A stretch of 64,000 nucleotides of DNA from Chitinophaga pinensis (GTDB taxonomy: Bacteria; Bacteroidota; Bacteroidia; UKL13-3), in assembly GCA_945870425.1 (NCBI GenBank), contig CAMBSD010000001.1, positions 248,001-312,000 of the forward strand, written 5' to 3'. The notes under the pieces are model-generated. The model did not search any database, was not told the DNA's origin, and worked only from the letters and a program-made list of their open reading frames with translations. The translations under genes were made by a program, and so were the position numbers. The first letter of the stretch is position 1. Every line of letters starts with the position of its first letter. This document shows, piece after piece, positions 29,307-48,726 of the stretch.

Positions 29307-29331
29307 TGTAGTAGTAGTCTTGTAGTAGTAG
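29307..29331. promoter_or_regulatory. Tandem direct repeat, putative operator of the glucan regulon
   Basis: TGTAGTAGTAGT at 29307-29318 and TGTAGTAGTAG at 29321-29331, exactly 14 bp start to start, 131 bp before the ATG at 29438. A related pair with the same 14-bp period stands 121 bp before the operon starting at 37517. Both precede a promoter-like element by 93-95 bp. Confidence 0.55.
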
Positions 29332-33181: not shown

Positions 33182-33967
33182 ATGCTAGGCTTGAGAAAAG
33201 TTACCATTACACGATATATCACTCCTTTGCGAGAAGGAGGTTCTTTGCCTGCCTTGGCCGAAGGTGATGATGATTTTAAATATGTGCTTAAATTTAATGG
33301 AACTGGGCATGGCCCCAAGGTACTTATTGCAGAACTACTTGGTGGTGAAATAGCCCGTGCCATTAGCTTGAAGGTACCTGAATTGGTGTTTGCAGATTTG
33401 CACGAAGCATTTGGACAAACCGAAGCTGATGAAGAAATTCAAGATTTGTTAAAGGCCAGCAAAGGCTTGAATTTAGCACTACATTTCCTTTCAGGGGCTA
33501 TCAATTTCGACCCTGTGGTGAAGACGATTGAAGCAGAACTTGCCTCTCAAATTGTCTGGCTAGATGCCTTTATTACCAATGTTGATCGCACTTTTAGAAA
33601 TACCAATATGCTGCTATGGAACAGAGAACTTTGGTTAATAGATCATGGCGCTTGTCTGTATTTCCATCATGGGGGAACTGATTGGGAAGCTGCTAGTAAA
33701 ACACCTTTTGCTACTATTAAAACGCACGTACTTTTGCCGCAAGCCAGTCTGCTAACCCAGGTTGATGCAGAAATAAAGCAAGTATTGACTCCCGAGAAAT
33801 TGACCGAGATAGTTAATTTAATCCCAAATGAGTGGCTTGTGTGGAGCGATTCTGATAAATCACCAGATGAATTGCGAGCCATGTATTTGAACTTTTTTCT
33901 TGCCAGATTGAACAACACCGAATTATTTATTAATGAAGCCCAACATGCAAGAGAGACACTTATATGA
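33182..33967 (+). CDS. HipA-like kinase family protein
   Basis: 261 residues. The C-terminal half carries a kinase-like active-site loop: WLDAFITNVDRTFRNTNMLLW (residues about 126-146) resembles the HipA catalytic D-x-x-x-N-x-D-R-x-x-R-N stretch, followed by LIDHGACLYFHHG (152-164), equivalent to the metal-binding Asp motif. It is shorter than HipA (about 440 residues) and lacks the N-terminal subdomain. It overlaps the DUF3037 gene by 35 bp. The pair is recurrent in bacteria but I know of no settled function; no HipB-like HTH antitoxin is adjacent. Confidence 0.77.
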   Translation: MLGLRKVTITRYITPLREGGSLPALAEGDDDFKYVLKFNGTGHGPKVLIAELLGGEIARAISLKVPELVFADLHEAFGQTEADEEIQDLLKASKGLNLALHFLSGAINFDPVVKTIEAELASQIVWLDAFITNVDRTFRNTNMLLWNRELWLIDHGACLYFHHGGTDWEAASKTPFATIKTHVLLPQASLLTQVDAEIKQVLTPEKLTEIVNLIPNEWLVWSDSDKSPDELRAMYLNFFLARLNNTELFINEAQHARETLI

Positions 33968-34328
33968 GTATTCTGTAATTCGGGTCTTGCCAATTGTTGA
34001 GCGAGAAGAATTTATCAATGTGGGCATCATTTTGTTTTGCAAAAAAGAAGCTTTCATAAAGGTGCATTATGCTTTAGATGCAGCAAAATTGCAATCCTTT
34101 TCAAAAGACATAGATGTGGAGCAAATCGAAAAAAACCTCCAATCATTGACTAAGATAGCATATGGAGAAAAGAGCTGCGGTCCTATAGCTGTGTTGGATG
34201 TTCCATCAAGATTCAGATGGCTTACGGCTGTAAGGAGTTCAGCCATTCAGCTTTCTAGGCCACACCCAGGTATGTGTAGCGACTTGGAAATGACGGCAAG
34301 ACGTTTATTTGAGGAGTTGGTTTTATAA
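33933..34328 (+). CDS. DUF3037 protein
   Basis: 131 residues opening with MKPNMQERHLYEYSVIRVLP; the run EYSVIRVLPIVEREEFINVGIILF is characteristic of DUF3037. An alternative start is the ATG at 33945. The gene begins inside the end of the HipA-like kinase gene (35-bp overlap), so expression is coupled. Soluble, no signal peptide. Function unknown; the constant pairing with a HipA-like kinase suggests a partner or substrate. Confidence 0.85.
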   Translation: MKPNMQERHLYEYSVIRVLPIVEREEFINVGIILFCKKEAFIKVHYALDAAKLQSFSKDIDVEQIEKNLQSLTKIAYGEKSCGPIAVLDVPSRFRWLTAVRSSAIQLSRPHPGMCSDLEMTARRLFEELVL

Positions 34329-34430: not shown

Positions 34431-37316
34431 TTACAACCTAGATAGGTAATCAGTAAGATTGGTGCCATTGTCTAGCTCCATTTTCTTGCGCAAACGATAC
34501 CTACTAATTTCAACACCCCTCACCGAAATATTGAGTATGCTAGCAATCTCTTTGGTAGATAAATTCATTCGCAAATAGGCGCACATCTTGATATCATTGG
34601 CTGAAAGCACGGGGAATTTGGCCTTTAAACTTTGGGTAAAGCTTTCATGAATATTATTAAAATACAATTCAAATTTTTCCCAATCCTTGTCAATCAGTGT
34701 GTCTTTGTCAATGTCTTTAATAAGCTCACTGATTTCAGGCTTTATTTTAGGGTCATTACTGATCTGAGAGATTCGTTTCAATTTCTCTTTAATTGATAAT
34801 AGCTTTTCGCTTTTCTGAACAATATGCATGGTACTTGAAGCCAATTCTTTACCTTGGTGTTCCAATTCCCTTTGCAATTGTTGGTTCTTCAGTTCTATTA
34901 GTTCTTTTTCTTGCTTTTCTTTCTCAAGCCTTAGCTGCTCGGTTTGTTGCTTAAAATGATCATCTTTAGCTGCTATCACTCTTGATGCTTTTTTTCTCAC
35001 CAACATTTGTGGGTAGAAACCAATCACTAATACAGCTATCAAAGCTAATATAGAATAAAAAACCTTGGCTAATGGGGTCCAATACCAAGGAGCGGGAATA
35101 TGAATTTTTACGAGCATTTCGGGCCCTTCAAGTGACATACATTTGGCTTTTACCCTAAGGGTATAATCCCCATAAGACAAACGGCTAAACTCTCTGGTAC
35201 TGGTGGTTTTCCATGCCGACCATGATTTGTCCCACCCTTCGAGATAACTTGAAAACAATACATCTTTATAAAAATAGGCATTAGGTGAGCTAAACGAAAA
35301 CTCAACCGAGCGGTCATTCATATCAATTTCAGACGAGCTTGAGTTCAGGTATTTGTAGTACACCGAGTCTAAAGCACTAAGCGAATTAACCGATGTAATA
35401 AGCACACTTGGTGATTGCTGCTTGAATTTTTTTATTTGTAGTAAATCAATGCTAACAAAACCTGATTCAACACCAATAAACAAATTGCCATTACTGCACT
35501 CGTTTAAAAACTCAAATCCACCCACTAAATTTTGGTCTAGCTTGGGCAGTTTTACTTTTGAATAGGTATAATCCACTCCATTGTAACTAGGCCTTAAATA
35601 GCCCATTTCTTGGCTGCTGATGAACCATATATTGCCATTTTTTCCATTAATGATGCGTTTGTAGGCAATGCTCGTATCAAGCAAAGTAGCAAAGGTTTTT
35701 GACAACTCAAATTTATCCAGGTCGCTGCGGTATTTATAAATGCCTTTTTCAGTGGCGAAACAAACTCCCATATCGGTACTAAAAACATAGTTTTCGGTTT
35801 CATTGGGAAGACCGTCTTTTGTGCCATATAGCCTCACTTGCTTGATGCCCTGCATGTCATCATCTAATTTGATTTTATAGAGACCTTTATAAGGATGGCC
35901 CACCCACAAATTTCCTACTTCATCTTGTTCAATAAATCGGCTCGATTCCTTAAATCGTGCCAATTTGTTAGATAAAACCAACGAATTGTTTTCCCATTTA
36001 AAAACACTAAGCCCATTGTATGTTCCCATGATGAAATAGCCGGGATGTTTTTCATCGTTAATAATCTTCCAACAACCTCTTGTGTCACTTATTTTATTGG
36101 CCACAAGGCCATTTACTTCAAACAAACCTTCGTGGTGACAAACAAATAGTTTTGAATTAATCACTTGTGTATTCCATACTTGACCTTCTGTGTTGCTCAC
36201 AAGTTGAAAGGCATCTGAATTGTTATTGTTTTTATCCCTGCAGTATAAGCCATTGTTGGTTCCAAAGTAGTAGTAGTTGTTAAACTCGGTCATGGTATAG
36301 CCAGTTCCTTTCAACAACCCATCGGGCAATAGATATCCAAAAGGGTAGTTTAATCGCACCAAGTCTATGCCATTGTCTAGGCCAAGCCAAACATTGTTAT
36401 TCCTGTCTTTAAACAAAGAGAGTACGTTATTATTCTGTAGGCCATCCTTTATGCTGATGTTGTTTACGATTCTGCCACTGCTATCTAAGAAATAAATGCC
36501 TGCGCGGTTACTGGCCAACACATAATAATTACCGTAGGTACAGGCTCTGTATATTCTATTATTTTTCAGGGAGCTTTCGTCTTTATCTGATTTTACAACT
36601 GTATTACCTCTTAGAAAGTAAATGCCATTTTTATAGGTGGTAATGAGCAAATCATTTTTGCCGGAAGGCAGTAATGAAGAAATGTCCAATTTTGTATCAG
36701 AAATCAGTGCTTTGAATTGGTTCGATTTTAACTCAAATACACTTCCATTCATATCTGTAAGGAGTAGCCTTTTGCCAACTTTAAACATATATTCAAGTAG
36801 GTTGGCTGAGGGGCTTTGCAAGCTCATTTTTTGGCCATCATAAGCAAATACATATCGACTTGTTTGAAAATAGATTTTATTATTTTGTTCCTCTATGCTC
36901 CATACATCTTCAAATCCTTTGAAATCAGAGGGAAGAAGCTGCGCCAAAGATTCAAAACGAAGGGAACCATTCTTCTCAAAAATAAAATACCCCAATTCAT
37001 TCTGTCCGCCCACATATATCCGATTGCTTGCATTGTCATAATACACTGATCTAAGAATGGTGTTTTTGGGCAGCGGGTGAAGGCTATATTGTTTACCATC
37101 AAATATAAGTAGGCCGTCATTATTGGCAAAAAACACCAAGCCATTATCTGATTCACAAATATCCCATGTTTGTGTCCCCCCGTTATAATTTTGTTTCGGG
37201 TAGTTTTTTACCATAGGTATAGAAGTCATGTTTTGGGCCATCATTTTGTCATGGCATAAACTTCCTAAACCAAAAATTAGAGCAAATATGATTGAATATG
37301 TAAAATTTTTTGGCAT
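34431..37316 (-). CDS. Membrane sensor/LuxR regulator with two-component-propeller and Y_Y_Y domains
   Basis: 961 residues. A signal peptide (to about 28) precedes a long periplasmic region with recurring two-component regulator propeller motifs (for example NNVWLGLDNGIDLVR and GNLWVGHPYKGLYKI). A Y_Y_Y domain follows (about 665-735), then a transmembrane helix (about 742-768), a Gln/Glu/Lys-rich coiled coil (about 780-835) and a C-terminal LuxR-type HTH (about 895-961, with LSTKEIASILNISVRGVEISRYRLRKKM). No kinase or receiver domain is present, so the periplasmic signal is passed straight to a DNA-binding domain. It is divergent from the seven-gene glucan operon with 200 bp between, and its likely DNA site lies in that gap. 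Confidence 0.85.
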   Translation of the reverse strand: MPKNFTYSIIFALIFGLGSLCHDKMMAQNMTSIPMVKNYPKQNYNGGTQTWDICESDNGLVFFANNDGLLIFDGKQYSLHPLPKNTILRSVYYDNASNRIYVGGQNELGYFIFEKNGSLRFESLAQLLPSDFKGFEDVWSIEEQNNKIYFQTSRYVFAYDGQKMSLQSPSANLLEYMFKVGKRLLLTDMNGSVFELKSNQFKALISDTKLDISSLLPSGKNDLLITTYKNGIYFLRGNTVVKSDKDESSLKNNRIYRACTYGNYYVLASNRAGIYFLDSSGRIVNNISIKDGLQNNNVLSLFKDRNNNVWLGLDNGIDLVRLNYPFGYLLPDGLLKGTGYTMTEFNNYYYFGTNNGLYCRDKNNNNSDAFQLVSNTEGQVWNTQVINSKLFVCHHEGLFEVNGLVANKISDTRGCWKIINDEKHPGYFIMGTYNGLSVFKWENNSLVLSNKLARFKESSRFIEQDEVGNLWVGHPYKGLYKIKLDDDMQGIKQVRLYGTKDGLPNETENYVFSTDMGVCFATEKGIYKYRSDLDKFELSKTFATLLDTSIAYKRIINGKNGNIWFISSQEMGYLRPSYNGVDYTYSKVKLPKLDQNLVGGFEFLNECSNGNLFIGVESGFVSIDLLQIKKFKQQSPSVLITSVNSLSALDSVYYKYLNSSSSEIDMNDRSVEFSFSSPNAYFYKDVLFSSYLEGWDKSWSAWKTTSTREFSRLSYGDYTLRVKAKCMSLEGPEMLVKIHIPAPWYWTPLAKVFYSILALIAVLVIGFYPQMLVRKKASRVIAAKDDHFKQQTEQLRLEKEKQEKELIELKNQQLQRELEHQGKELASSTMHIVQKSEKLLSIKEKLKRISQISNDPKIKPEISELIKDIDKDTLIDKDWEKFELYFNNIHESFTQSLKAKFPVLSANDIKMCAYLRMNLSTKEIASILNISVRGVEISRYRLRKKMELDNGTNLTDYLSRL

Positions 37317-37395
37317 TCTATTCGCTCAAAAATACAATTTTTTTTGATTTGACAAACCTAAGCAAACAATTTATTTTCAATTATTTGCAATTTAT

Positions 37396-37417
37396 TGTAG
37401 TAGTGATGTTGTAGATA
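37396..37417. promoter_or_regulatory. Second direct-repeat operator, before the beta-glucan operon
   Basis: TGTAGTAGTGATGT followed by TGTAGATATTT; the two TGTAG units start at 37396 and 37410, 14 bp apart, as at 29307/29321. It lies between the regulator gene and the operon, 121 bp before the start at 37517, so it could serve both directions. Confidence 0.5.
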
Positions 37418-37516
37418 TTTAAGTTCCGAAAATTACTTGAAGTATGTGAGTTGGGTGAGGGGTTATGGTTTTAAGGTGCCATATCAAATACATTCGCTTT
37501 ACATAAAACTATTGTT

Positions 37517-39442
37517 TTGGAAAAAAATTACATTTTTAGTCGATTTTTCAATGTTTGTATCTTCTTGATTTTGGCTCAATCTCCAATACATATGTATGCT
37601 CAAAATCAAGATAGTACTGACAGCTCTAAACCAATATCAACGGGACCTACAGGACTTTTACCTTTAAAGAAACTTAATGTAAATGGCTACTACAGGTTTT
37701 TTGGCATCAACAGAGACCTTGAGCAATCATTTGTTGTCATTCCCGGAAATCAATATGCCAATGCACCTGCCTATATTTTAGGGACAGGGGATGTATACCG
37801 TGATCCTCCTTTGATGTTATTGAATTTATCCGTTCAACCTACATCTAAAACTTTCATTGGAATGGACTATGCCTTGTATCACAATTTTACTGGCAATATT
37901 GGTAATAGTCCTATCAATCTAAATTTGGGTATCAATTTGACAGGAAGTATTCAAACCACTTCTGGAAAATTTACAGCACATATGGGAGGTATCAATTGGA
38001 CCGATATGAGTGGAATGGTTTTTAGTAGTTTTATTGGATATCAGAGGTTTAGCATATATGAGCGCTACCCATGGGAAAATAATTCGGTTTCGTATGATAG
38101 AGCTAGCAATTACTTCGAGTACGGAAATATCAGTCGTGATATGCGTTTTGGAATGCAGGCCTTCAAGGGCATGATGATAGATGGAAACGAGTTGCCTTAT
38201 AATTTTTCATTTAGATTTTTATATGGTGTAACCCCTGTTCAATCGATTATTGGTAGCAAGATTCCTGCCTACACCATGGGTTTGCGCATTAGAAAGCAAA
38301 TGAAAAACCAAAGCATTGGTTTTAATATGATGAACTACACTTCATTCCTTGATTCAACTGCCAAAGAAGAAGCAGGTATACAGTTGCAAACCATTTCTTA
38401 TGATGCCAATTGGAAAGGATTTGAATTGTCTACTGAGTTTGGAAGAGGTCAACTGTATTCGGCAGTTCAAAATGAAGGTTGGGGAAATGCCATCCGTTTA
38501 AAAGTTAAAACACCTGCTAAAATTACTAAGATTCCATTTGATATTGAAGGTTTTTATATGAGTCCTCAATTTGTAAATTATTATGGTAATTTTCTTAGTT
38601 CAAATACGGCCTTTTTAAGCACTGCTTCAGTTAATCAAACGGGTTCTTCTGCAGGAGGTAGTGGAGGTATCAGTAATTTTGCAGGCTCTATCACGGATGT
38701 AGGTATGATCAGTAATAATCGTAAAGGGTTTAGTTTTAATTTTTGGTTAGATTTGACTAAGACCACTAAATTAAATGTGGGCAATATGGTTTCTTCTGAA
38801 ATAAAATCAATGGGAAAAACCATGGCTTTTGGGCATAAAATTAATGCTTTGCCTTTTTCAAGATTTGTGCCTTTTGTAAATAATGTAGGTGCCTATAACA
38901 ATTGGACTTCATATTTCCGAGGCTTTTCGCAAACAATGGAGATTATCGATACCAATGCATCGGGAATGCCTAAGACCCTTACTAATTTTAACATGTTGCA
39001 GGTTCAGTTAAAACAAAAAGTGAACATGCCTTGGATGCCTTTCTATTTGTTATATGTAGGTTCATTTGGTTCAGCACAAACCGACTTTAGTTTCATTCCT
39101 GAGTTTAGTAATAAAGCCTATTTGCGTACCTTTTATCATGAGTTTGATGCTATCTTTATGCTTAACAAACAAATCAGCTTAATAACCTCCTATGGCCAAG
39201 AAAATATTACTGGAAATGCACAACTCAATAAAGGTGATAACAGAGATGGTGTTTTAGGGAGCATAAATAACAATGCAATTGAGCAAGAGTCAACCATGTT
39301 AGGATTAGGGATGGATTTGAACATTTCAAAAAATACCACTCTATATTTGAGAAGGCGCTGGTTTAGCCAAGAAGATAAAAGCTTTTTAAAGGATAATATA
39401 AAAGGAACCGAAACCACCATTGAACTAAAACTATATTTCTAA
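37517..39442 (+). CDS. Large outer-membrane beta-barrel, first gene of the glucan operon
   Basis: 641 residues; N-terminal signal peptide ends near MYAQN. Throughout it alternates amphipathic strands and ends ELKLYF, an outer-membrane C-terminus (terminal Phe). No TonB-dependent plug, no SusC box and no carboxypeptidase-like N-terminal domain is seen. It occupies the place of SusC as the first gene of a polysaccharide operon, so uptake or surface attachment is inferred. Start at TTG (37517-37519). Followed 2 bp later by a second barrel gene. Family not recognised. Confidence 0.72.
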   Translation: MEKNYIFSRFFNVCIFLILAQSPIHMYAQNQDSTDSSKPISTGPTGLLPLKKLNVNGYYRFFGINRDLEQSFVVIPGNQYANAPAYILGTGDVYRDPPLMLLNLSVQPTSKTFIGMDYALYHNFTGNIGNSPINLNLGINLTGSIQTTSGKFTAHMGGINWTDMSGMVFSSFIGYQRFSIYERYPWENNSVSYDRASNYFEYGNISRDMRFGMQAFKGMMIDGNELPYNFSFRFLYGVTPVQSIIGSKIPAYTMGLRIRKQMKNQSIGFNMMNYTSFLDSTAKEEAGIQLQTISYDANWKGFELSTEFGRGQLYSAVQNEGWGNAIRLKVKTPAKITKIPFDIEGFYMSPQFVNYYGNFLSSNTAFLSTASVNQTGSSAGGSGGISNFAGSITDVGMISNNRKGFSFNFWLDLTKTTKLNVGNMVSSEIKSMGKTMAFGHKINALPFSRFVPFVNNVGAYNNWTSYFRGFSQTMEIIDTNASGMPKTLTNFNMLQVQLKQKVNMPWMPFYLLYVGSFGSAQTDFSFIPEFSNKAYLRTFYHEFDAIFMLNKQISLITSYGQENITGNAQLNKGDNRDGVLGSINNNAIEQESTMLGLGMDLNISKNTTLYLRRRWFSQEDKSFLKDNIKGTETTIELKLYF

Positions 39443-39443
39443 T

Positions 39444-41165
39444 ATGAAAAATATTTATTCCTATATAATCTTAACAATTCTAATGCTACCCATAGTTGCA
39501 AAGGCCCAAGAGAAAAAGATTGATTTCTTTGGGTCTGGACGCTTTGTTTTTAATAACAGCAGCATCGGAGGTGAACTTATTAAACACGATTCAACTACCG
39601 CTCGTAAACAAATGACTGGTTATACATTGTTTGATTTAGGTTTTCATATCAGACCTTCAGAAAACACTGAGATAAAAGCTATCACACGTGTTCAAAACGA
39701 CATGACAGGCTTTTGGGGCGGTGGTATTGTATTCAATTTGCGTGAACTGTATCTAAGAGGATTAATGTTTAATCGCATTAAATACCAGGTGGGTGATTTG
39801 AATACAAGAATGACAGAGTATACCTTATTCAATTATCAAGGAGAAATGGGTCAAAACAATCCATTGGCTTTAAATACATTTGGTGAGGTTATTCAATATG
39901 ATAAATTCTACGGTCAAAACTCTTGGCGTCAGCAAGGTGCAACGGCAGATATAGGCTTTGATTTTAATAAATACCTAAATCATATTCATCTAACTGGATT
40001 GATAACCAAGAATCGCCAAACCGATTATTTTACCACACCTGATAGGCTTTTTTCTGGCGCTAACATGCAAGCAAAATTGTTTAACCAATTAAACCTTGGC
40101 TATAATTATACCAATGTTTTTGATGTGCAACATTCTGCAATGTTTTCAAATGCCATGTTTAACAATAGGGTGCAAAGCATTGATGTAAAAGAAAAATTTG
40201 CATATAAGAATATGCAGTTTGATTTGGCTGGAGAATTTGGTGTGTCTAATGTTAATTTTGAGAACGCCCAAAATGCGCCACAGTTGAAGGATGGTTCTTT
40301 TATGGATGGGAGCATAGCTATCCAAAACAAGAAAAGCAATTGGAATGCATCATTAGCTTTGAGAAGTGTTGAATCGGAATTTAGAAGCATGGGTGCACAG
40401 AGCAGAAGGGTTGATTTTACAGCTGTTGCCAATGAATTTGCTTACTACACTAATCGCGAGACCCCAAGGCCAGTTAATATGCTATCATTGCTTACAGATG
40501 GGAATTATTATAATATGTTTTTAAGTCCAACCCTTAAAGATTTTAACCCTGCTTACGAAAATATATTGCCGTATGGTAAAGCCACACCAAACCGACAAGG
40601 GGCTGACGTGAAATTGGGATGGAATCACAGCAACAAAAACTTATTAAAACTTGGAGCCAATATTTCGTTTTATAATGAAATTACAGGACAAGGGACAACC
40701 AATCTAAGAAGTTTTAATAATACAGAATTGCATGCAGATATTGGTATCAATGAGTTTTATAAAGGCAAGAAAAAAGTGCATCTTGGTGTATTTGTAAAAC
40801 AACAAAATACCAGCAGAAGTGGAACCCAAGGTATTGATAAAATTGATTTGAAGAGTATGCAATATAAAGTGGGTTTGGAATATGAAATGATACCTAATTT
40901 AGAATTGCAATTGGCTGGAATAATTTTAGAAGCGAATGGAAATGAATTTATGGCACAAAGAAATTCGTTTAATGAAATTATCTTCTATAATGCCTATAAA
41001 GCCGATTTATCAGAAACACTTTTATTAGGTGGAATTAATTATCAGTTTAGTAAAAATAATTGCTTGAAGATTCAATATCAACAAGCGGATTGGAACAATA
41101 AACTGCTTGCATCAAACCAGTATACCATCAGCAAATTTGCCATTTTATATAACTTATTTTTTTAA
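39444..41165 (+). CDS. Second outer-membrane beta-barrel of the glucan operon
   Basis: 573 residues; signal peptide to about IVAKAQ, then strand-rich sequence ending FAILYNLFF, an aromatic outer-membrane C-terminus. Begins 2 bp after the first barrel gene. It is not similar to SusD, which would be an alpha-helical lipoprotein. One segment (LRELYLRGLMFNRIKYQVGDLNTRM) looks like a periplasmic-turn region. A two-barrel complex with the preceding protein is possible but unproven. Function unknown. Confidence 0.7.
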   Translation: MKNIYSYIILTILMLPIVAKAQEKKIDFFGSGRFVFNNSSIGGELIKHDSTTARKQMTGYTLFDLGFHIRPSENTEIKAITRVQNDMTGFWGGGIVFNLRELYLRGLMFNRIKYQVGDLNTRMTEYTLFNYQGEMGQNNPLALNTFGEVIQYDKFYGQNSWRQQGATADIGFDFNKYLNHIHLTGLITKNRQTDYFTTPDRLFSGANMQAKLFNQLNLGYNYTNVFDVQHSAMFSNAMFNNRVQSIDVKEKFAYKNMQFDLAGEFGVSNVNFENAQNAPQLKDGSFMDGSIAIQNKKSNWNASLALRSVESEFRSMGAQSRRVDFTAVANEFAYYTNRETPRPVNMLSLLTDGNYYNMFLSPTLKDFNPAYENILPYGKATPNRQGADVKLGWNHSNKNLLKLGANISFYNEITGQGTTNLRSFNNTELHADIGINEFYKGKKKVHLGVFVKQQNTSRSGTQGIDKIDLKSMQYKVGLEYEMIPNLELQLAGIILEANGNEFMAQRNSFNEIIFYNAYKADLSETLLLGGINYQFSKNNCLKIQYQQADWNNKLLASNQYTISKFAILYNLFF

Positions 41166-41174
41166 TACACGAAC

Positions 41175-42209
41175 ATGAAAAAAGCATTGCTATACATAGG
41201 AATTATCAGTCTGACAATACTATCATCATGTAAGAAGAGTGATAAAATTGAAGGCCCCGAATTGGTAGATTTATTTGGAGAGTTTAAGGTATTAGAACCA
41301 TTGAAAGCATCCATTGCCAATCCGAATTTTGCTACAGGTGATATTGTAAATTATCACACAAAACTATCTATTCGCACCAATTGGACGATTGAAGTGATAG
41401 GCTTAAACAGCGGGGCTATGAAGGTATTTACAGGTAATGAAAAAGACTTTACACTGAATCCAGTTATATGGAATGGCAGCATCACTTTTGCACCTTTTTT
41501 TAGAAAGAATGAACCGGTAGTAGCCCGAATGAGATTTGATAATTATCCAGATACACTTTACTCCGATACAATTACCATTTCAGCGTCTCGACCAACACCT
41601 GCTGTTGATATTCTTATTGATGATTTTGAAAGTCCGCAACGTGCCTATAATACCTTTACAGAAGGACAACAAACATTTAATTCAACATCAGTAAACTTCC
41701 AAGGCGTAGCACCTGCAGAAAAGAATAGATTTTATGCCCTGGGAGCTAATCATGGTCCTACTGCAAGTTTGTTTTTGTGTGGAATGGGATTAAGTGCAAA
41801 GGCAAGTCAAGGAACTGGTAACAATTACTTTGTTTTTAATACGGACAATCCAAAGCGCATTTATTTTAATGCCTACGTAAATGGTTGGGGCGAAAACAAC
41901 GCACAACTATCTGTGCAGTTCCAGGAAGATGACAATTTAGATGGTGTGTATCAGCCGGCACAAGAAGGAACCTACCAACAACAATTCAATGTGAATTGGA
42001 CAGGATGGAAATTGGTATCATTCTCATACGATCAAACAAGCATATCTACATCAGGTGGATTTGGGAATATTGATGCAACTGGTAAGAAAGATCTAGATAG
42101 AATAATCAATGTGCAATTTTTGTTGCTAGCGCAGCCAGGAACAGCAGGAAATACGAGGGTCGGACTTGACTATGCTTCGTTTACCTACATCAATCCATTT
42201 CAACCATAA
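41175..42209 (+). CDS. Surface lipoprotein with sandwich domain
   Basis: 344 residues; MKKALLYIGIISLTILSSC is a type II signal peptide with lipobox (LSSC), followed by KKSDKIEG. The N-terminal half is Ig/PKD-like (about 30-135, ending TLYSDTITISAS). The C-terminal half starting VDILIDDFESPQRAYN (about 145) is a jelly-roll sandwich of the galactose-binding/CBM type, with RVGLDYASFTYINPF at its end. A surface glycan-binding role is inferred from this and the operon. It ends on the A that begins the next start codon (1-nt overlap). Confidence 0.73.
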   Translation: MKKALLYIGIISLTILSSCKKSDKIEGPELVDLFGEFKVLEPLKASIANPNFATGDIVNYHTKLSIRTNWTIEVIGLNSGAMKVFTGNEKDFTLNPVIWNGSITFAPFFRKNEPVVARMRFDNYPDTLYSDTITISASRPTPAVDILIDDFESPQRAYNTFTEGQQTFNSTSVNFQGVAPAEKNRFYALGANHGPTASLFLCGMGLSAKASQGTGNNYFVFNTDNPKRIYFNAYVNGWGENNAQLSVQFQEDDNLDGVYQPAQEGTYQQQFNVNWTGWKLVSFSYDQTSISTSGGFGNIDATGKKDLDRIINVQFLLLAQPGTAGNTRVGLDYASFTYINPFQP

Positions 42210-43381
42210 TGAGAAAAATATTTACATATATTTTCACATTATCTGTATTGGTTTCGGCATGTGGTATCCGCATGCAAACCACACAACTAACTGATGAATG
42301 GGGTGGAACCTATGCAAATAATGCTGTAAAAGAATTTCAGGATAAGGAAATTTACAGCGATCAAACCGTGGATATATGGGGCATGGAAAAGACCGACTGC
42401 AAGAACTTTCTACGTGTGGATACCATTTCATTTAGTGGCAAGTCTTGTCTTAGTTTAACTTGGAACAGAACAGGCAGTTGCCCTTGGATTGGTTTTGGTA
42501 TTGGTTGGAATGGTTATGCAGCAAAGGATTTAAGCGAAGTAATGGAAAAAGGTAGCATCGATTTTTATATCAGAGCTATCAAAGGGAAACAATTTATTCC
42601 TACCCTTATTTTTTTATTAGAAGATTATTCAGGTGTACAAACAGCAGCTTTGCTCAAAGCCAAGCATTTGACAAAATATCCAATTGATGAAGAATGGCAG
42701 AAAGTGAGTATTCCATTGAATTCCTTTTTGCAAGCATCAAAACCATTAAGTGATTTTAGCAATATCAAAAGTTTGAATGTGGAATGTCAAGGCGAAGGTT
42801 CATTTTTGATTGATAAAATCGAAATAGGAGGTGCTGCAGCAAATGCAGTATCTGTAAGTAAATTTGGTAAAACCATTACCCAAAATTTTCCTGCCTATAT
42901 CTTTAAAGATGATTTTACTTATGCATGGGGTATGGGCAATTACCCCGGAAAATTGATTGAATTGAATTCGATAAAATCTTATCAAGGTAATAAGTCTATT
43001 CATGCCAATTGGAATCAAGATGAAAGCGGCAAACAAATCCGTCAAATTGGAATGAATTGGGAACATTGGCAAGCCATTGCATTTCCTGATTCAATCAATA
43101 GTTATGGTTTGCAGTTTTATGTAAACTGCAATAAAAAAAACACGTTGAATAATATCAAGATAGGATTCGAGTCCTATAATGGCAAATCAGTTTTGTTGCC
43201 CATTAATGAAAATTATATAAGTCCATTACCTAATAGTGATTGGCAATTGGTTTCCATTCCATTTAGTGAGTTCAATTTTGCGGAAATAGGATTTGATGTG
43301 AATAGATTCAAGCAATTAACAATAGAATTTAATAATTCAGGCGAGATATGGCTTGATGAAATATTTTTAAAGAAACAATAA
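42209..43381 (+). CDS. Surface lipoprotein with two CBM-like domains
   Basis: 390 residues; lipobox at about 14-18 (LVSAC) after a hydrophobic N-terminus. Two homologous sandwich domains follow (about 45-205 and 225-388), both with a WxxIGFGIGWN/IGMNWEHW-type motif and an ending LIDKIEIGG or WLDEIFLKK, like the CBM11/ExoP-like fold used to hold glucans. No enzyme motif is present. It starts 1 nt inside the previous gene's stop and ends 3 bp before the GH3 gene, so all are one transcript. Confidence 0.72.
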   Translation: MRKIFTYIFTLSVLVSACGIRMQTTQLTDEWGGTYANNAVKEFQDKEIYSDQTVDIWGMEKTDCKNFLRVDTISFSGKSCLSLTWNRTGSCPWIGFGIGWNGYAAKDLSEVMEKGSIDFYIRAIKGKQFIPTLIFLLEDYSGVQTAALLKAKHLTKYPIDEEWQKVSIPLNSFLQASKPLSDFSNIKSLNVECQGEGSFLIDKIEIGGAAANAVSVSKFGKTITQNFPAYIFKDDFTYAWGMGNYPGKLIELNSIKSYQGNKSIHANWNQDESGKQIRQIGMNWEHWQAIAFPDSINSYGLQFYVNCNKKNTLNNIKIGFESYNGKSVLLPINENYISPLPNSDWQLVSIPFSEFNFAEIGFDVNRFKQLTIEFNNSGEIWLDEIFLKKQ

Positions 43382-43384
43382 TTT

Positions 43385-45625
43385 ATGAAGTTAAAAACAG
43401 TTTTACTATTATTTCTTATCGTTTTGTTCAACCAAGTAATTGGACAGAATAATTCAAGTTCAATAGAACGTGCAAAAGCACTCTTAAGTAAAATGACCCT
43501 TGAAGAAAAGGTGGGACAGATGACCCAACTTACCATTGAAATGATTTCGAAAGGAGTTGGTAACGACATTAGCAAGCCCCATGCAGTTGATACGGCTAAA
43601 TTGAGAAATGTAATCGTTAATCTTGGAGTAGGTTCGATACTCAATGTGAGTGGCTATACCTACACTGTAAATCATTGGAAAGAGGTCATTAATTCTATTG
43701 AAAAATATAGCAAAAAGTCAAGATTAAAGATACCAGTATTATATGGCATTGATGCCATTCATGGTGCTAATTACACTGTAGGAGCTACACTATATCCTCA
43801 GCAAATTGGACTGGCTGCTACATTTAACCCTGAGCTAAGTTATAAAATGGCCCAGTATGTTGCCAATGATGTTCGTGGTAGTGGTATTCCTTGGAATTTC
43901 TCTCCTGTTTTGGATGTGGGAAGAAACCCAATGTGGCCAAGGTTTTGGGAAACATTTGGTGAAGACCCTTATCTAGTTTCACAAATGGGAGTATCGATGG
44001 TGAATGGTTATCAAAATACGAATAATGGTAAAGTTAGATCTTTTGCAGCTTGTTTAAAACATTATGTAGGTTATAGCAATCCGCAAAGTGGACATGATAG
44101 AGCACCTGCTTATATTCCGGAGCGTCAACTTCGCGAAATATATTTATTGCCATTTGCCAAAGCCATAGCCGCAGGTGCCAAAACCATCATGATTAATTCA
44201 TCTGAAATTAATGGGGAACCTGTGCATGCAAGTAAATTTTTATTGCAAACCATATTGAGAGATGAGTTAAACTTTAAGGGAATAACTGTAACCGATTGGG
44301 AAGACATAAAGAATCTGACTACAAGACACAAGGTGGCTGAGACATATAAAGAAGCTGTTGCCTTATCTATTAATGCAGGTATTGACTTGGCTATGGTGCC
44401 GCTTGATTTGGAGTTTACTCAGTATTTGATTGAAAACGTTAAAGAAGGTAAAGTTAAATTAGATCGCATTGATGAGGCTACCCTGAGAATATTGAATCTA
44501 AAATTTGAATTAGGTTTGTTTGACGAAGTGAAAACGAAAACCCCAAGATTTATTGAACCGGAACAAATTGAAAGCAAGAAATTGAGCTATGAATTAGCTT
44601 CTCAAAGCATCACGTTACTAAAAAATCAATTTAACAGTTTACCACTTGCAAGTAATGAAAGAATATTGGTTACAGGTCCCAATGCAAATTATATCAATGC
44701 CTTAAATGGCGGATGGACACACACATGGCAAGGCAGAGACACCAGTTATAATCCTATGGTTTTAACAGTGGCAAATGCACTCCAAAATGTATTTGGCAAA
44801 TCACAAGTAACTTACCTAAAAGGAAATTCATACAACCAAATTTTGTCTTCAAATGAATTACTAAATGCTGCCCAAAATATGGGTACGGTGGTATTGTGTT
44901 TAGGTGAAGATACCTATACTGAAAAGCCTGGTGATATTAATGATTTGGAACTTGAACAAGCGCAACAAAATTTAATTAAAATTTATAAAGAAGCGGGTAA
45001 GAAAGTAATTGTAATTTTCTTGGAAGGAAGACCTAGAACTTTTGTGAAGACTGAGCCTTTTTGTGATGCTATTCTTTATGCTTATTTACCCGGTAACGAA
45101 GGTGCTTTGGCGATTGCTGATATATTGATTGGTAAAGTTAACCCAAGCGGCAAGTTGCCATTTACATTCCCTCGTTTTGCAGGCACTCATATAACCTATG
45201 ATTGTAAATATACAGAGACCCTTAACAACGATTTTAAACCTATTGGATTTAATCCATTGTTTCCTTTTGGTCATGGATTGAGTTATACCCAATATGAGTA
45301 TTCAGATTTAGTTATTGATAACAAAAATCCTTCGACAAGTGATAGCATTTTAGTTAGGGTAAAAGTAAGTAATAAAGGAGAAATGGATGGATATGAGACG
45401 GCACTGCTTTATGTATCCGATGAGTATGCAAGTATTACCCCCTCTATCAAAAGACTTAGGGCATTCAAAAAAGTTTATCTTAAAGCTGGAGAATCAAAAA
45501 ACGTATCAATTAAATTGGCTATATCAGATTTGGCATTTGTTGGGTTGGATAACAAGTTTATGGTGGAGCCTGGTAAGTTTGTAATTAATATAGGCAATTT
45601 GAATGATGCTATTATTGTTAAATAA
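43385..45625 (+). CDS. GH3 beta-glucosidase
   Basis: 746 residues; N-terminal signal peptide (FNQVIGQ). The (beta/alpha)8 domain (about 25-380) carries nucleophile Asp304 in GITVTDWED and the KHYVGYS motif; the second GH3 domain (about 400-610) contains GLGEDTYTEKPGD and PGNEGALAIADILIG, and a C-terminal Fn3-like domain closes it (DLAFVGLDNKFMVEPGKF). The overall order is a normal periplasmic GH3 beta-glucosidase that would cleave oligosaccharides from the non-reducing end. Operon position fits beta-1,3-glucan breakdown. Confidence 0.92.
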   Translation: MKLKTVLLLFLIVLFNQVIGQNNSSSIERAKALLSKMTLEEKVGQMTQLTIEMISKGVGNDISKPHAVDTAKLRNVIVNLGVGSILNVSGYTYTVNHWKEVINSIEKYSKKSRLKIPVLYGIDAIHGANYTVGATLYPQQIGLAATFNPELSYKMAQYVANDVRGSGIPWNFSPVLDVGRNPMWPRFWETFGEDPYLVSQMGVSMVNGYQNTNNGKVRSFAACLKHYVGYSNPQSGHDRAPAYIPERQLREIYLLPFAKAIAAGAKTIMINSSEINGEPVHASKFLLQTILRDELNFKGITVTDWEDIKNLTTRHKVAETYKEAVALSINAGIDLAMVPLDLEFTQYLIENVKEGKVKLDRIDEATLRILNLKFELGLFDEVKTKTPRFIEPEQIESKKLSYELASQSITLLKNQFNSLPLASNERILVTGPNANYINALNGGWTHTWQGRDTSYNPMVLTVANALQNVFGKSQVTYLKGNSYNQILSSNELLNAAQNMGTVVLCLGEDTYTEKPGDINDLELEQAQQNLIKIYKEAGKKVIVIFLEGRPRTFVKTEPFCDAILYAYLPGNEGALAIADILIGKVNPSGKLPFTFPRFAGTHITYDCKYTETLNNDFKPIGFNPLFPFGHGLSYTQYEYSDLVIDNKNPSTSDSILVRVKVSNKGEMDGYETALLYVSDEYASITPSIKRLRAFKKVYLKAGESKNVSIKLAISDLAFVGLDNKFMVEPGKFVINIGNLNDAIIVK

Positions 45626-45630
45626 ACCAA

Positions 45631-47451
45631 ATGATGAAAATAAAATTTAGACTTCTTTTATTATTAAGTATTACCATTCCATTTTCAGGATTCTCACAAG
45701 AGTTTTTGAGATGGTCGGATGAATTCACGGGCTCGCAACTTGATACCAATTATTGGGAATACCAAATAGGCGATGGTTGTCCAAACCTTTGTGGTTGGGG
45801 TAATGATGAAAGAGAATCGTATCAAAAAAGCAATGTGAGTGTTGAAGGAGGTTTATTAAAAATAAAAGCCAAAAAGGAAAATATTGGCAACAGCACTTAT
45901 AGTTCAGGCAGAATCAGAACGATGAAAAAATTTGATTTTGCCTCAGGTCGAATTGATGTGAGAGCGCGTCTTCCAATTGGTCAGGCATATTGGCCCGCTG
46001 TATGGTTTTTGCCAACAGAAAATTATTATGGTGGCTGGCCTTTAAGTGGGGAGATTGACTTATTAGAGGGCAAAGGACAAGAACCTAAAAACACTTATGG
46101 AACCATTCATTATGGTGCGCATACCCCTAATAACAAATATACGGGAGCTTCCTATACATTGCCATCAGGTTCGTTCACAACAGACTTCCATACTTTTTCT
46201 TTGATATGGAAAGTAGATACCATACAATGGTTGGTAGATAATGTAGTGTATAGTACCAAAACCAAAAAAGATTTACCTGATTTTTGGTGGCCTTATAATC
46301 GAAATTTTCATTGCATTGTAAACCTTGCTGTAGGTGGTTATTTTTTAGGTTATCCAGATGGGACAACACCTGATACTGCTACTCTTCAGTTAGATTATAT
46401 TAGGGTGTATCAAAACCTTGATGACCTATTTATTTCAGGACCTGAGGCTATTTTACGTGCTGATCAACAAAAGGAGTATTATACCCAAAAGTTAGCGGGT
46501 GCAAGCTACGATTGGGTCGTGCCTATGAATGCTAAAATTGTTTCAGGACAAGGAACACCAAATCTTAAAGTAAATTGGGGATTAAAGAGCGATAGTGTAA
46601 AAGTAAAAATTACATATAAATCAGTCACTAAGACAGTAAGCAAATATGTGAAGGCCCTTCCAGACACATGCCAAGGAGTTATTGATAATATTGAAAGCTT
46701 AAGAACAGTTTATTGGGTGGGTGGAAATGGAACTTATAAGGCATCAGTAAGCACTCCATCTAAAGACTCAGTTAACAGTACCTTGATGTGCAATAGGTAT
46801 TATAGAAATGGCTCTACCACATACGATGTCTTAACCGTATTTACTGATGTGATTAGAAATGCAAAGCCTTTTGAAGAGGGAAGTCTTTTATTTAAAATGA
46901 AGCTTTACACTACTGCTCCTATTGGTACTCAAGTAAACATTAATTTCGAGAATAGAGTTTTGTCATCAAGTGATTACCCAAGTGGAAGAAGATGTGTTTT
47001 GCAAGCTACTACCAGTAAAACAAGGTCATGGGAAGAATTGGTCTTTAAGTTAATTTTAAAACCCGATGCCAACACACCTGAGGGAAGTATTGACCAGTTG
47101 GTAATTTTATTTGCACCTAATTCAAGCAATACTGATGTATTTTATTTTGATGAATTTGGCATAGAAGAAACACCTTGTAAAACCATCAGTTCATCTATAA
47201 ATGAAATGAATACTAATTTAGGTAAAATAACGGTATATCCGAACCCTTTCAATCATCAATTGCAGATTGACTCTAAGCATCTGCCTGACGAAATTAGCAT
47301 TATGAATTTGATGGGCCAAAACATCTTACAATCAAATAACCTAGATGAAATAAACAAACAGCTGCCAAATCTAAAAGAGGGTGCTTTCATACTTAGGCTG
47401 TCTATTAAAGAGCAATACCATTTCTTTAAAATTATTAAATCAAATCCATAA
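45631..47451 (+). CDS. GH16 endo-beta-glucanase with T9SS signal
   Basis: 606 residues; signal peptide ends near SGFSQ. The GH16 catalytic domain (about 25-265) has EIDLLE with nucleophile Glu141, Asp143 and acid/base Glu146, as in laminarinases (family fold; exact linkage not proved). After it come a PKD-like domain (about 275-345) and a CBM-like sandwich (about 355-515), then a T9SS sorting domain starting TVYPNPFNHQ (about residue 530) and ending HFFKIIKSNP. It would be secreted and tethered at the cell surface to cut polymeric glucan. It begins 5 bp after the GH3 stop. Confidence 0.93.
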   Translation: MMKIKFRLLLLLSITIPFSGFSQEFLRWSDEFTGSQLDTNYWEYQIGDGCPNLCGWGNDERESYQKSNVSVEGGLLKIKAKKENIGNSTYSSGRIRTMKKFDFASGRIDVRARLPIGQAYWPAVWFLPTENYYGGWPLSGEIDLLEGKGQEPKNTYGTIHYGAHTPNNKYTGASYTLPSGSFTTDFHTFSLIWKVDTIQWLVDNVVYSTKTKKDLPDFWWPYNRNFHCIVNLAVGGYFLGYPDGTTPDTATLQLDYIRVYQNLDDLFISGPEAILRADQQKEYYTQKLAGASYDWVVPMNAKIVSGQGTPNLKVNWGLKSDSVKVKITYKSVTKTVSKYVKALPDTCQGVIDNIESLRTVYWVGGNGTYKASVSTPSKDSVNSTLMCNRYYRNGSTTYDVLTVFTDVIRNAKPFEEGSLLFKMKLYTTAPIGTQVNINFENRVLSSSDYPSGRRCVLQATTSKTRSWEELVFKLILKPDANTPEGSIDQLVILFAPNSSNTDVFYFDEFGIEETPCKTISSSINEMNTNLGKITVYPNPFNHQLQIDSKHLPDEISIMNLMGQNILQSNNLDEINKQLPNLKEGAFILRLSIKEQYHFFKIIKSNP

Positions 47452-47460
47452 CATATAAAT

Positions 47461-48726
47461 ATGAAAAAGTGCCTATTAATATGGATTTTGTTTGTCTTAG
47501 CTAACCCAATATGGGCGCAAGTTATTAAGGTTGAAATTACCAAGAATGCCAATGGTAATTATCAATTGTTACGAGGCAATAATCCCTTTTATGTAAAAGG
47601 TGCAGGTGGAGATGTGCTTATGGATAAAACACTTTCTGCGGGAGGAAATTCTGTAAGACTTTGGGGTGCCGAAAATGCCCAGGCAGTGCTTGATGAAGCG
47701 CAGAAAAAAGGTTTAACTGTAATGCTCGGCCTATGGATGCCACCAGAACGACATGGTTTTGATTACAGTGATAAGTGGGCATGCCAAGATCAAGTTGAAC
47801 AATTTAAAAGTATTGTGAATAGGTTTAAGAATCACCCAGCATTATTATTATGGGGAGTGGGCAATGAAGTTGATTTAGAATATACAGATTTTTCTGTATG
47901 GAAAGCCGTACAAAATATTGCAGCTATGATTCATGAAGAGGACAAGAATCATCCAACATGTGTGGTTACTGCTGGTATTGATGCTCCTGAAGTTTCATTA
48001 ATCAAAGAGTATTGTCCTGATATCGATATCTTGGGTGTTAATACCTATGGTGATTTGCCAAGTTTACCAGAAAAAATTAGATTATTTGGATGGACTAAAC
48101 CATACTTAGTTACTGAGTGGGGACCAAATGGACATTGGGAGGTAGCCAAAACAAAATGGGGTGCAGCCATAGAACAAACCTCAACTGAAAAAGCCATTAC
48201 ATATAGAGAGAGGTATGTAAATTATATTCAAAATGATAGCAGCTTGTGTTTAGGTTCTTATGCCTTTTTATGGGGACAAAAGCAAGAAACCACACCTACA
48301 TGGTATGGTGTATTCGTTGATGGAAAACAAACAGAAGCTGTTAATGTGCTGCAAGAAGTTTGGAGTGGAACTGCTCCAAAAAATTGGGCTCCACAAATAG
48401 ATTCATTTCTTTTAAATAATACCTTACCATTTAAAAGTGTTGAATTAAAGAAAGGAGTAAAAACAAATGTTAAGCTTCATATCAATCATAAGGATATTTC
48501 AAGTCTTGGATTCAATTGGGAACTATTACCTGAAAGTGAATTCACTAAAAGTGGAGGTGATGTTGAGAAACGTCCTGATGCCATGCCTATCAGCATGAAA
48601 GGCGATAACAATGTGGGTTATAGTTTTAATGCACCTTATCAAAAAGGGGCCTATCGTTTATTCGTTTATATCATAGATAAACATGAACAAGTAGCTTGTG
48701 CTAATTTTCCGTTTTGGGTTAAGTAA
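47461..48726 (+). CDS. Clan GH-A glycosidase, family uncertain
   Basis: 421 residues; signal peptide to about PIWAQ. A TIM barrel shows the clan A pair: acid/base Glu136 in WGVGNEVD and nucleophile Glu219 in VTEWGPNG. It resembles the catalytic domain of GH2 but lacks the N-terminal sandwich domains, and a small C-terminal sandwich (about 330-421) ends it. GH2, GH5-like or GH158-type are all possible; a beta-glucan or beta-1,3/1,6-glucoside substrate is inferred from the operon only. Starts 9 bp after GH16 and is the last gene of the operon. Confidence 0.8.
   Translation: MKKCLLIWILFVLANPIWAQVIKVEITKNANGNYQLLRGNNPFYVKGAGGDVLMDKTLSAGGNSVRLWGAENAQAVLDEAQKKGLTVMLGLWMPPERHGFDYSDKWACQDQVEQFKSIVNRFKNHPALLLWGVGNEVDLEYTDFSVWKAVQNIAAMIHEEDKNHPTCVVTAGIDAPEVSLIKEYCPDIDILGVNTYGDLPSLPEKIRLFGWTKPYLVTEWGPNGHWEVAKTKWGAAIEQTSTEKAITYRERYVNYIQNDSSLCLGSYAFLWGQKQETTPTWYGVFVDGKQTEAVNVLQEVWSGTAPKNWAPQIDSFLLNNTLPFKSVELKKGVKTNVKLHINHKDISSLGFNWELLPESEFTKSGGDVEKRPDAMPISMKGDNNVGYSFNAPYQKGAYRLFVYIIDKHEQVACANFPFWVK

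Follow-up and report, generated by a model that had tools for sequence, protein, structure and literature searches.

A putative beta-1,3-glucan locus without SusC and SusD in a freshwater Bacteroidota bacterium, built around a conserved pair of predicted outer-membrane barrels

Introduction

Bacteroidota loci for glycan use are recognised by SusC and SusD as their hallmark, and PUL finders key on this pair. How would a locus with glycosidases and surface lipoproteins take up its sugars if it encodes neither of the two? The question is raised by a 64,000-nucleotide stretch of DNA (the window) from a freshwater Bacteroidota bacterium, in which seven same-strand genes form an operon (37517-48726). 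The original prediction saw here an undescribed glucan-uptake locus, with two outer-membrane barrels possibly acting as a new transporter in the place of SusC/D.

An 'atypical PUL' for cellulose, consisting of two outer-membrane proteins, two SGBP-like lipoproteins and a glycosidase and devoid of SusC/D, has been published for Cytophaga hutchinsonii, C. aurantiaca and Sporocytophaga myxococcoides (PMC12016534). In C. hutchinsonii, cellulose use requires CHU_1276, CHU_1277 and the second lipoprotein, while the SusC/D homologues play no part in it (PMC12016534). Going by the title of a work cited there, CHU_1276 is involved in glucose uptake. Besides, the published hits for a model of CHU_1276 are TBDT-like (PMC12016534), so that a TonB-linked mechanism is possible.

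Results

All genes of the locus lie where they had been predicted (Table 1), and the tight spacing claimed for them (gaps of at most 10 bp) is borne out by gaps of 1, 9, -1, 3, 5 and 9 bp across the seven operon genes. The sensor-regulator, on the other hand, had been counted as a member of the operon; since it is read divergently from the minus strand, with ~200 bp in between, it lies outside. Its orthologue occupies the same place in relatives, at 34-75% identity. An intergenic alignment from 13 genomes contains ~35 invariant columns, most of which fall inside an operator-like element with a single exact site in the window. The original prediction had left out the upstream gene for a T9SS-exported multi-CBM protein, a conserved neighbour that adjoins the regulator in most relatives and has a similar promoter element. 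Exact copies of this element precede the multi-CBM orthologue in two relatives (L065 and L066), and the gene is probably part of the same regulon.

Table 1. Features of the locus and its upstream neighbour (window coordinates)
Feature	Position	Strand	Evidence
Probable second copy of promoter element, 5' of multi-CBM gene	29307..29328	+	pattern TGTWGTAGNNRTGTWGTAG with 1 mismatch
T9SS-exported protein with repeated CBM48-like modules, 1204 aa	29438..33052	+	Pfam CBM_48/AMPK1_CBM, Por_Secre_tail
SusR-like one-component sensor-regulator, 961 aa	34431..37316	-	Reg_prop, Y_Y_Y (just below cut-off), GerE/LuxR HTH
Conserved operator-like element TGTAGTAGTGATGTTGTAG...GAAGTATGTGAGTTGGG	37396..37455	+	intergenic alignment, 13 genomes
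B1, predicted outer-membrane barrel, 641 aa, TTG start	37517..39442	+	conserved family A1; C-terminus ...TIELKLYF; no match in Pfam/NCBIfam/PDB
B2, predicted outer-membrane barrel, 573 aa, probably B1 paralogue	39444..41165	+	alignment A2; weak OMP_b-brl/Porin_4 in some members
LP1, SGBP-like lipoprotein, 344 aa, lipobox LSSC	41175..42209	+	alignment A4; 3' of B2 in nearly all loci
LP2, bimodular SGBP-B-like lipoprotein, 390 aa	42209..43381	+	Pfam CBM30 + SGBP_B_XBD; CBM30 structures 2c24/1wmx
GH3 beta-glucosidase-like enzyme, 746 aa	43385..45625	+	PF00933 E 4.2e-76, PF01915 E 7e-42
GH16 glucanase with PKD-like module and T9SS tail, 606 aa	45631..47451	+	PF00722 E 4.9e-17, Por_Secre_tail E 1.2e-7
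GH158 endo-beta-1,3-glucanase, 421 aa	47461..48726	+	phmmer vs PDB: 9oro E 1.5e-97, 6pal E 9.4e-70

B1 and B2 are unclassified predicted outer-membrane barrels, so called on the basis of their signal peptides, aromatic C-termini and strand pattern. Together with LP1, they matched no Pfam or NCBIfam family and no solved structure, even when profiles were compared with the PDB. B2 is probably a paralogue of B1, given a profile match with a probability of 97.9% (76% with smaller alignments). None of the 25 B1 and 22 B2 members matched the Pfam families Plug or TonB_dep_Rec; weak matches to Porin_4 were found in two of the 22 B2 members (best E 0.0029) and to OMP_b-brl in seven (best E 0.00031). 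Structure prediction from alignments of sequences 66-95% identical gave no confident model (pLDDT 31 for B1 and 32 for B2), and the count of amphipathic strands did not clearly separate B1 from its shuffles (21 vs 17 +/- 2.9) and was only mildly positive for B2.

As predicted, neither the ORF listing nor Pfam returned a SusC or SusD in the locus. Profile comparison likewise detected no relation of either barrel to a SusC/D fold: B1 and B2 against the genome's SusC, and LP1 and LP2 against its SusD, reached probabilities of 0.3-5%.

The last gene of the operon has a clan GH-A fold and is assigned to GH158 by full-length matches to characterised members (9oro, residues 22-420, and 6pal). The combination of GH16, GH158 and GH3 fits beta-1,3-glucan of the laminarin type as the putative substrate. 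The ORF and Pfam search found no glycosyltransferase or synthase among the operon genes, and a GH9 endoglucanase of the chu_1276-1280 kind is absent from the operon.

B1 is carried by 48 of the 395 sampled genomes of the class and by 10 of 114 genomes of another, Rhodothermia-like order. B2 follows directly 3' of B1 wherever checked; its apparent absence from four loci (L130, L055, L085, L053) was dismissed as an artefact of ORF picking. B1-B2-LP1 form a conserved core, for which 70 B1 and 68 B2 sequences were assembled. A search for the gene order in other genomes had been proposed, and the order is indeed kept in ~25 genomes of the family, with the core form occurring also outside the class, so the locus is more than a chance arrangement. 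GH158, GH16 and GH3 adjoin B1 in most loci, the adjacent enzymes track the B1 clade, and SSS symporters adjoin the core in several cases. We distinguished a cellulose version with GH9 (L130, L135, L144, L145), a chitin version with GH18 and NagB (L136, L147, L155, L159; L138 is truncated at a contig end) and a starch version with GH97 and GH13 (L143). Retention of B1-B2-LP1 while the enzymes change with the B1 clade is as expected of a transport or capture module with exchangeable enzymes.

SusC over cut-off is lacking from 12 of 30 B1-bearing genomes, among them all eight examined genomes of the family that has the cellulose, chitin and starch versions and in which B1 can be present five or more times; other TonB-dependent receptors are still present in such genomes. 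Within 20 kb of a B1 locus, SusC was found only once (L060), in divergent orientation and with SusD also nearby; we judged it to belong to a neighbouring canonical PUL and rejected it as part of the B1 locus. The G242/G282 loci, considered as possible Cytophaga/Sporocytophaga, have high-GC proteins, a LacI-type regulator and a GH158/GH16 set, which argue against that origin.

The GH9 loci are arranged as B1-B2-LP1-380-aa bimodular lipoprotein-GH9, which is the five-gene order of chu_1276-1280. Their B1 and that of the window are homologous over their full length (Prob 100, E 5e-88; reciprocal E 6.5e-38). The 380-aa protein has aromatic residues at CHU_1279 positions 89, 92 and 180, with those at 253 and 256 shifted by 2-4. 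It is by gene order and by the residue positions published for CHU_1279, not by CHU sequences, that the GH9 form is equivalent to the chu_1276-1280 architecture. The locus is therefore a version, directed at beta-1,3-glucan, of a machine already known but sparsely described. The suggestion of a new transporter at the place of SusC/D gained from the conserved B1/B2 unit, which occurs also in genomes without SusC over cut-off and has no detectable relation to SusC/D; 'undescribed' has to be given up, as the same architecture has already been published as an atypical PUL (PMC12016534). The family nonetheless extends far beyond the three cases published so far. In the literature searched, we found no description of the beta-glucan version, its GH158/GH16/GH3 set, the phylum-wide spread or the chitin and starch versions.

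Discussion

We consider it probable that the locus is a SusCD-independent PUL for beta-1,3-glucan of the laminarin type in which B1 and B2 serve as the passage for oligosaccharides. LP1 and LP2 would hold the glucan at the cell surface, and the T9SS-exported GH16, probably together with GH158, would cut it. The resulting oligosaccharides would cross the outer membrane through the two homologous barrels, and GH3, with or without GH158, may complete hydrolysis in the periplasm. The products could then be taken up by a symporter of the inner membrane, such as several relatives encode next to the locus. The divergent sensor-regulator would activate the operon as well as the multi-CBM gene upstream of it, acting via the shared repeat element.

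Of the competing explanations, the one that fares best is still unlikely: B1 and B2 might serve as platforms in the outer membrane on which LP1, LP2 and the enzymes are anchored and displayed at the cell surface, with sugars entering via general porins or unrelated TonB receptors. Both barrels are, however, kept in the chitin and starch versions, and SSS symporters are co-located. CHU_1276, moreover, is reported in glucose uptake according to the above-mentioned title, and mutants in CHU_1276 and chu_1279 grow poorly on low glucose (PMC12016534), where a surface enzyme is unneeded. We regard it as distinctly improbable that the glucan is imported in trans and that the locus only digests. The genome does encode a single SusCD pair (contig C3), whose SusC scores over cut-off, and about 15 other TonB receptors that score below it; yet the lone pair looks like a starch PUL because an alpha-amylase/CBM48 T9SS protein adjoins it, and the B1-bearing genomes without SusC over cut-off speak against such a division of labour. 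Handling of endogenous or biofilm beta-1,3-glucan, or glucan export, instead of laminarin feeding is very improbable: the substrate is read from enzyme families only and several beta-1,3-glucans are possible substrates of GH16 and GH158, but the operon is without a glycosyltransferase or synthase, and paralogous loci have the gene sets usual for catabolism, among them NagB for chitin.

The recurrence of the same barrel pair throughout the phylum, beside enzymes for cellulose, chitin and starch, makes it look like a general alternative sugar importer, of which the cellulose system of C. hutchinsonii would be the one example described. Whether B1, B2 and the lipoproteins indeed represent a general Bacteroidota glycan importer parallel to SusCD, perhaps TonB-independent, is in our view evenly balanced. 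Such an importer would have a version for each of beta-1,3-glucan, cellulose, chitin and starch, would replace SusCD altogether in at least one lineage without SusC over cut-off, and would explain cello-oligosaccharide uptake by Cytophaga-type bacteria. Since this widespread, substrate-diverse family lacks SusC/SusD, many glycan-use loci will have gone uncounted. Besides, the long-standing puzzle of how C. hutchinsonii imports cellulose products without SusCD becomes a question on one family of proteins that spans several substrate classes and of which dozens of members have been aligned.

Compared with canonical SusCD PULs, the locus shares operonic lipoproteins, glycosidases and a co-located sensor-regulator (GH3, GH16, GH158, SGBP_B_XBD/CBM30, Reg_prop), but the adjacent susC/susD pair is missing and there is no profile-level link. 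The Bacteroides beta-1,3-glucan PULs (SusC, SusD, SGBP, GH16, GH158, GH3; PMC7157763 and, in part, general knowledge) resemble it in enzyme families, SGBP-B-type lipoprotein and expected substrate, whereas here two unrelated barrels stand in for SusC/SusD and GH16 is exported by the T9SS. With outer-membrane porins (Porin_4, OMP_b-brl), the barrels have in common the predicted barrel shape, the aromatic C-terminus and a weak match in some B2 members, yet they lack a significant family assignment, are always paired and are tied to SGBP lipoproteins. The nearest counterpart is chu_1276-1280, with two outer-membrane proteins followed by two SGBP-like lipoproteins (the second bimodular and SGBP-B-like), a glycosidase downstream and no SusC/SusD; the link is provided by the surveyed GH9 loci, which have the same order and homologues of the window's B1, B2 and LP1. 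The two differ in that the window locus has GH3, GH16 and GH158, for beta-1,3-glucan, in place of GH9, an LP2 composed of CBM30 and SGBP_B_XBD, a T9SS-exported multi-CBM neighbour, and a SusR-like sensor beside the operon, whereas an ECF sigma factor acts on chu_1276.

Operon architecture and regulation

The seven genes of the glucan operon lie on one strand with intergenic gaps of 1, 9, -1, 3, 5 and 9 bp (Table), and the tight clustering originally predicted thus holds, all gaps being ≤9 bp. B1 and B2, the two predicted outer-membrane barrels, carry signal peptides and have ELKLYF and YNLFF, respectively, as their C-termini; the SGBP-like lipoproteins LP1 and LP2 have lipobox-like starts (LSSC and VSAC). 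No Pfam, NCBIfam or PDB-sequence match was obtained for B1, B2 or LP1, either singly or as profiles, except that some B2 members weakly matched OMP_b-brl/Porin_4; neither B1 nor B2 members matched a plug or TonB-receptor family. B1 and B2 are probably paralogues, since their profiles matched each other at 97.9% (E 4e-13) with large alignments and at 76% with smaller ones. The clan GH-A enzyme is assigned to GH158 because of its full-length match to PDB 9oro, a GH158 (E 1.5e-97; 6pal, E 9.4e-70). B1 starts with TTG (37517), a codon shared by most of the aligned genomes, and most close relatives (L032, L033, L060 and others) have a non-ATG start at the same place.

The regulator, of the transmembrane-sensor type, had been counted as an operon member, yet is transcribed divergently. 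Most invariant columns of a 13-genome intergenic alignment fall within one strongly conserved element, of which a near copy precedes the gene of a multi-CBM48-like protein; in L065 and L066, the orthologue of this gene has exact copies upstream. The T9SS-exported protein was missing from the locus as first drawn. Its gene adjoins the regulator in most relatives, with conserved synteny, and has a similar promoter element. We infer that the operon and the multi-CBM gene may constitute a shared regulon. Two genes separate the multi-CBM gene from the regulator in the window and in L032, but not in most relatives.

Table. Features of the glucan locus in the window
Feature	Position	Size or place	Description
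Near copy of element	29307-29328	upstream of multi-CBM gene	
Multi-CBM48-like protein gene	29438-33052	upstream of regulator	T9SS-exported
Intervening genes	33182-34328	between multi-CBM gene and regulator	HipA-like kinase (by eye) and DUF3037-like gene
Regulator	34431-37316	divergent from operon	Reg_prop, Y_Y_Y (just under cut-off), LuxR HTH
Conserved element	37396-37455	200-bp divergent intergenic region	TGTAGTAG-N2-ATGTTGTAG then GAAGTATGTGAGTTGGG
Operon	37517-48726	seven genes	
B1		1st gene, 641 aa	predicted barrel
B2		2nd gene, 573 aa	predicted barrel
LP1		3rd gene, 344 aa	SGBP-like lipoprotein
LP2		4th gene, 390 aa	CBM30 + SGBP_B_XBD
GH3		5th gene, 746 aa	
GH16		6th gene, 606 aa	PKD-like module + T9SS tail
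GH158		7th gene, 421 aa	clan GH-A enzyme

SusC and SusD in the genome and beyond

Profiles built from 70 B1 and 68 B2 sequences were compared with the genome's own SusC, and LP1 and LP2 with its SusD. A SusC/D fold in either barrel would have refuted the original prediction; by profile comparison, no relation to SusC/D was detectable (probabilities: B1 vs SusC, 5%; B2 vs SusC, 0.3%; LP1 vs SusD, 4%; LP2 vs SusD, 1%). The whole genome (2.96 Mb, 97% complete) holds one SusC above the TIGR04056 cut-off and one SusD. This lone pair, on contig C3, lies beside a T9SS-tailed alpha-amylase/CBM48 protein and therefore probably serves starch; as to a SusCD encoded elsewhere that could carry the substrate, the only pair looks dedicated to alpha-glucan.

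As regards INDEPENDENCE from SusCD, 12 of the 30 B1-bearing genomes tested had no SusC over the cut-off; they included all eight tested members of family f68 (cellulose, chitin and starch versions). The SusC-less genomes are 91-100% complete and possess other TonB receptors, below the cut-off. In G020, a genome with a beta-glucan locus, SusD was not detected with PF07980, although two SusC-like proteins exceeded the cut-off. SusC occurred within the fetched flank of a single locus of 70 (L060).

Conservation and enzyme exchange

As to the proposed search for a conserved gene order, 27 of 64 genomes of the window's order encode B1, and about 25 of these keep the arrangement regulator / B1-B2-LP1-LP2-(GH3)-GH16-GH158. 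A class-wide sample of 395 genomes, searched with the B1 profile, had B1 in 48, representing 31 of 197 genera. One order outside the class had it in 10 of 114 genomes; there, the arrangement B1-B2-LP1-LP2-GH158-GH16/GH3 is again present, next to a LacI-type regulator, and the proteins, by eye, look like those of Rhodothermia. B2 directly follows B1 in the loci, including four in which automatic ORF choice had masked it. Genomes carry up to five B1 copies in the class sample. In L129, L131, L132, L133 and L156, the variant GH16-B1-B2-LP1-GH3, which lacks LP2 and GH158, is preceded by a conserved 193-216-aa protein with no assigned family.

In a small order (ten genomes, among them G537, G605, G682, G657, G632, G575, G704 and G726), B1-B2 loci for different polymers (L130, L135, L136, L143, L144, L145, L147, L155, L159) number one to about six per genome, and no SusC over the cut-off was seen. 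It may be a lineage relying on the B1-B2 system.

The 70 B1 loci comprised 49 with GH158, seven with GH16/GH3 but not GH158, five with GH18, four with GH9, one with GH97+GH13 and four unassigned, the labels stemming from single-query or small-profile searches and the weaker 'GH16' ones partly reflecting shared CBM/PKD modules. Pfam confirmed representatives for GH9 (E 2e-86, 2e-85), GH18 (E 3e-70), GH13 (E 2e-104) and GH97_N (E 7e-63), along with Glucosamine_iso and PIG-L. NagB accompanies four of the five GH18 loci; the fifth terminates at a contig end. The labels clustered on the maximum-likelihood B1 tree (10 changes vs 20.4 in shuffles; none of 200 as low) and the GH9 loci formed a single branch (support 100), so that B1 tracks the presumed substrate, which is what a substrate-specific module for uptake or capture would be expected to do. 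In several loci, sodium/solute symporters adjoin B1. In L140 (5372-9604), a GH158 B1-B2 locus, several flanking sulfatases suggest a sulfated glucan or mixed substrate.

Comparison with known systems

The original prediction of an undescribed locus stands in part. Three cellulose degraders are already known to have a system of this kind (PMC12016534). The open-access literature searched did not contain the beta-1,3-glucan version, the spread across the phylum, the chitin and starch versions tied to B1 clades or the SusC-less lineage. A marine study reports one laminarin PUL without susCD, with GH149/GH17-type enzymes; no barrels are described in the part of that source consulted (PMC10108472).

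The 'atypical PUL' for cellulose, chu_1276-chu_1280 of Cytophaga hutchinsonii, was described in 2025. It encodes two outer-membrane proteins, the predicted bimodular SGBP CHU_1278, the SGBP-B-like CHU_1279 (375 aa, with two domains resembling CBMs) and CHU_1280, a GH9 endoglucanase; other work has shown the SusC/D homologues to be uninvolved (PMC12016534). In the window locus, T9SS-exported GH16, perhaps with GH158, would most likely generate oligosaccharides at the surface, LP1/LP2 would hold the glucan, B1 and B2 would pass oligosaccharides across the outer membrane and GH3 would finish hydrolysis in the periplasm. This passage may be passive or energised: B1 and B2 lack plug or TonB-receptor family matches, but published modelling of CHU_1276 gave TBDT matches (PMC12016534). 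By analogy, we favour uptake over mere enzyme display, because CHU_1276 is involved in glucose uptake according to a published report cited in PMC12016534, and chu_1276 and chu_1279 mutants show growth defects at low glucose (PMC12016534).

Four GH9 loci (L130, L135, L144, L145) share the five-gene order of chu_1276-chu_1280. Their 380-aa lipoprotein has Y at 89/90, F at 92/93 and F at 180/181 (W89, F92 and F180 in CHU_1279) as well as Y at 255-257 and F at 258-260 (Y253 and F256), whereas F343 aligns only via a small indel. Window B1 and GH9-type B1 are full-length homologues (hhalign Prob 100, E 5.1e-88), and, reciprocally, the A7 profile matched window B1 at E 6.5e-38. Taken together, gene order, residue positions and B1 homology would place the window locus in the chu_1276-chu_1280 kind. 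Since its enzymes differ, it is not a member of the cellulose PUL; rather, it likely belongs to a wider family, to which the GH9-type loci link it, and by analogy likely works like the chu_1276-chu_1280 system.
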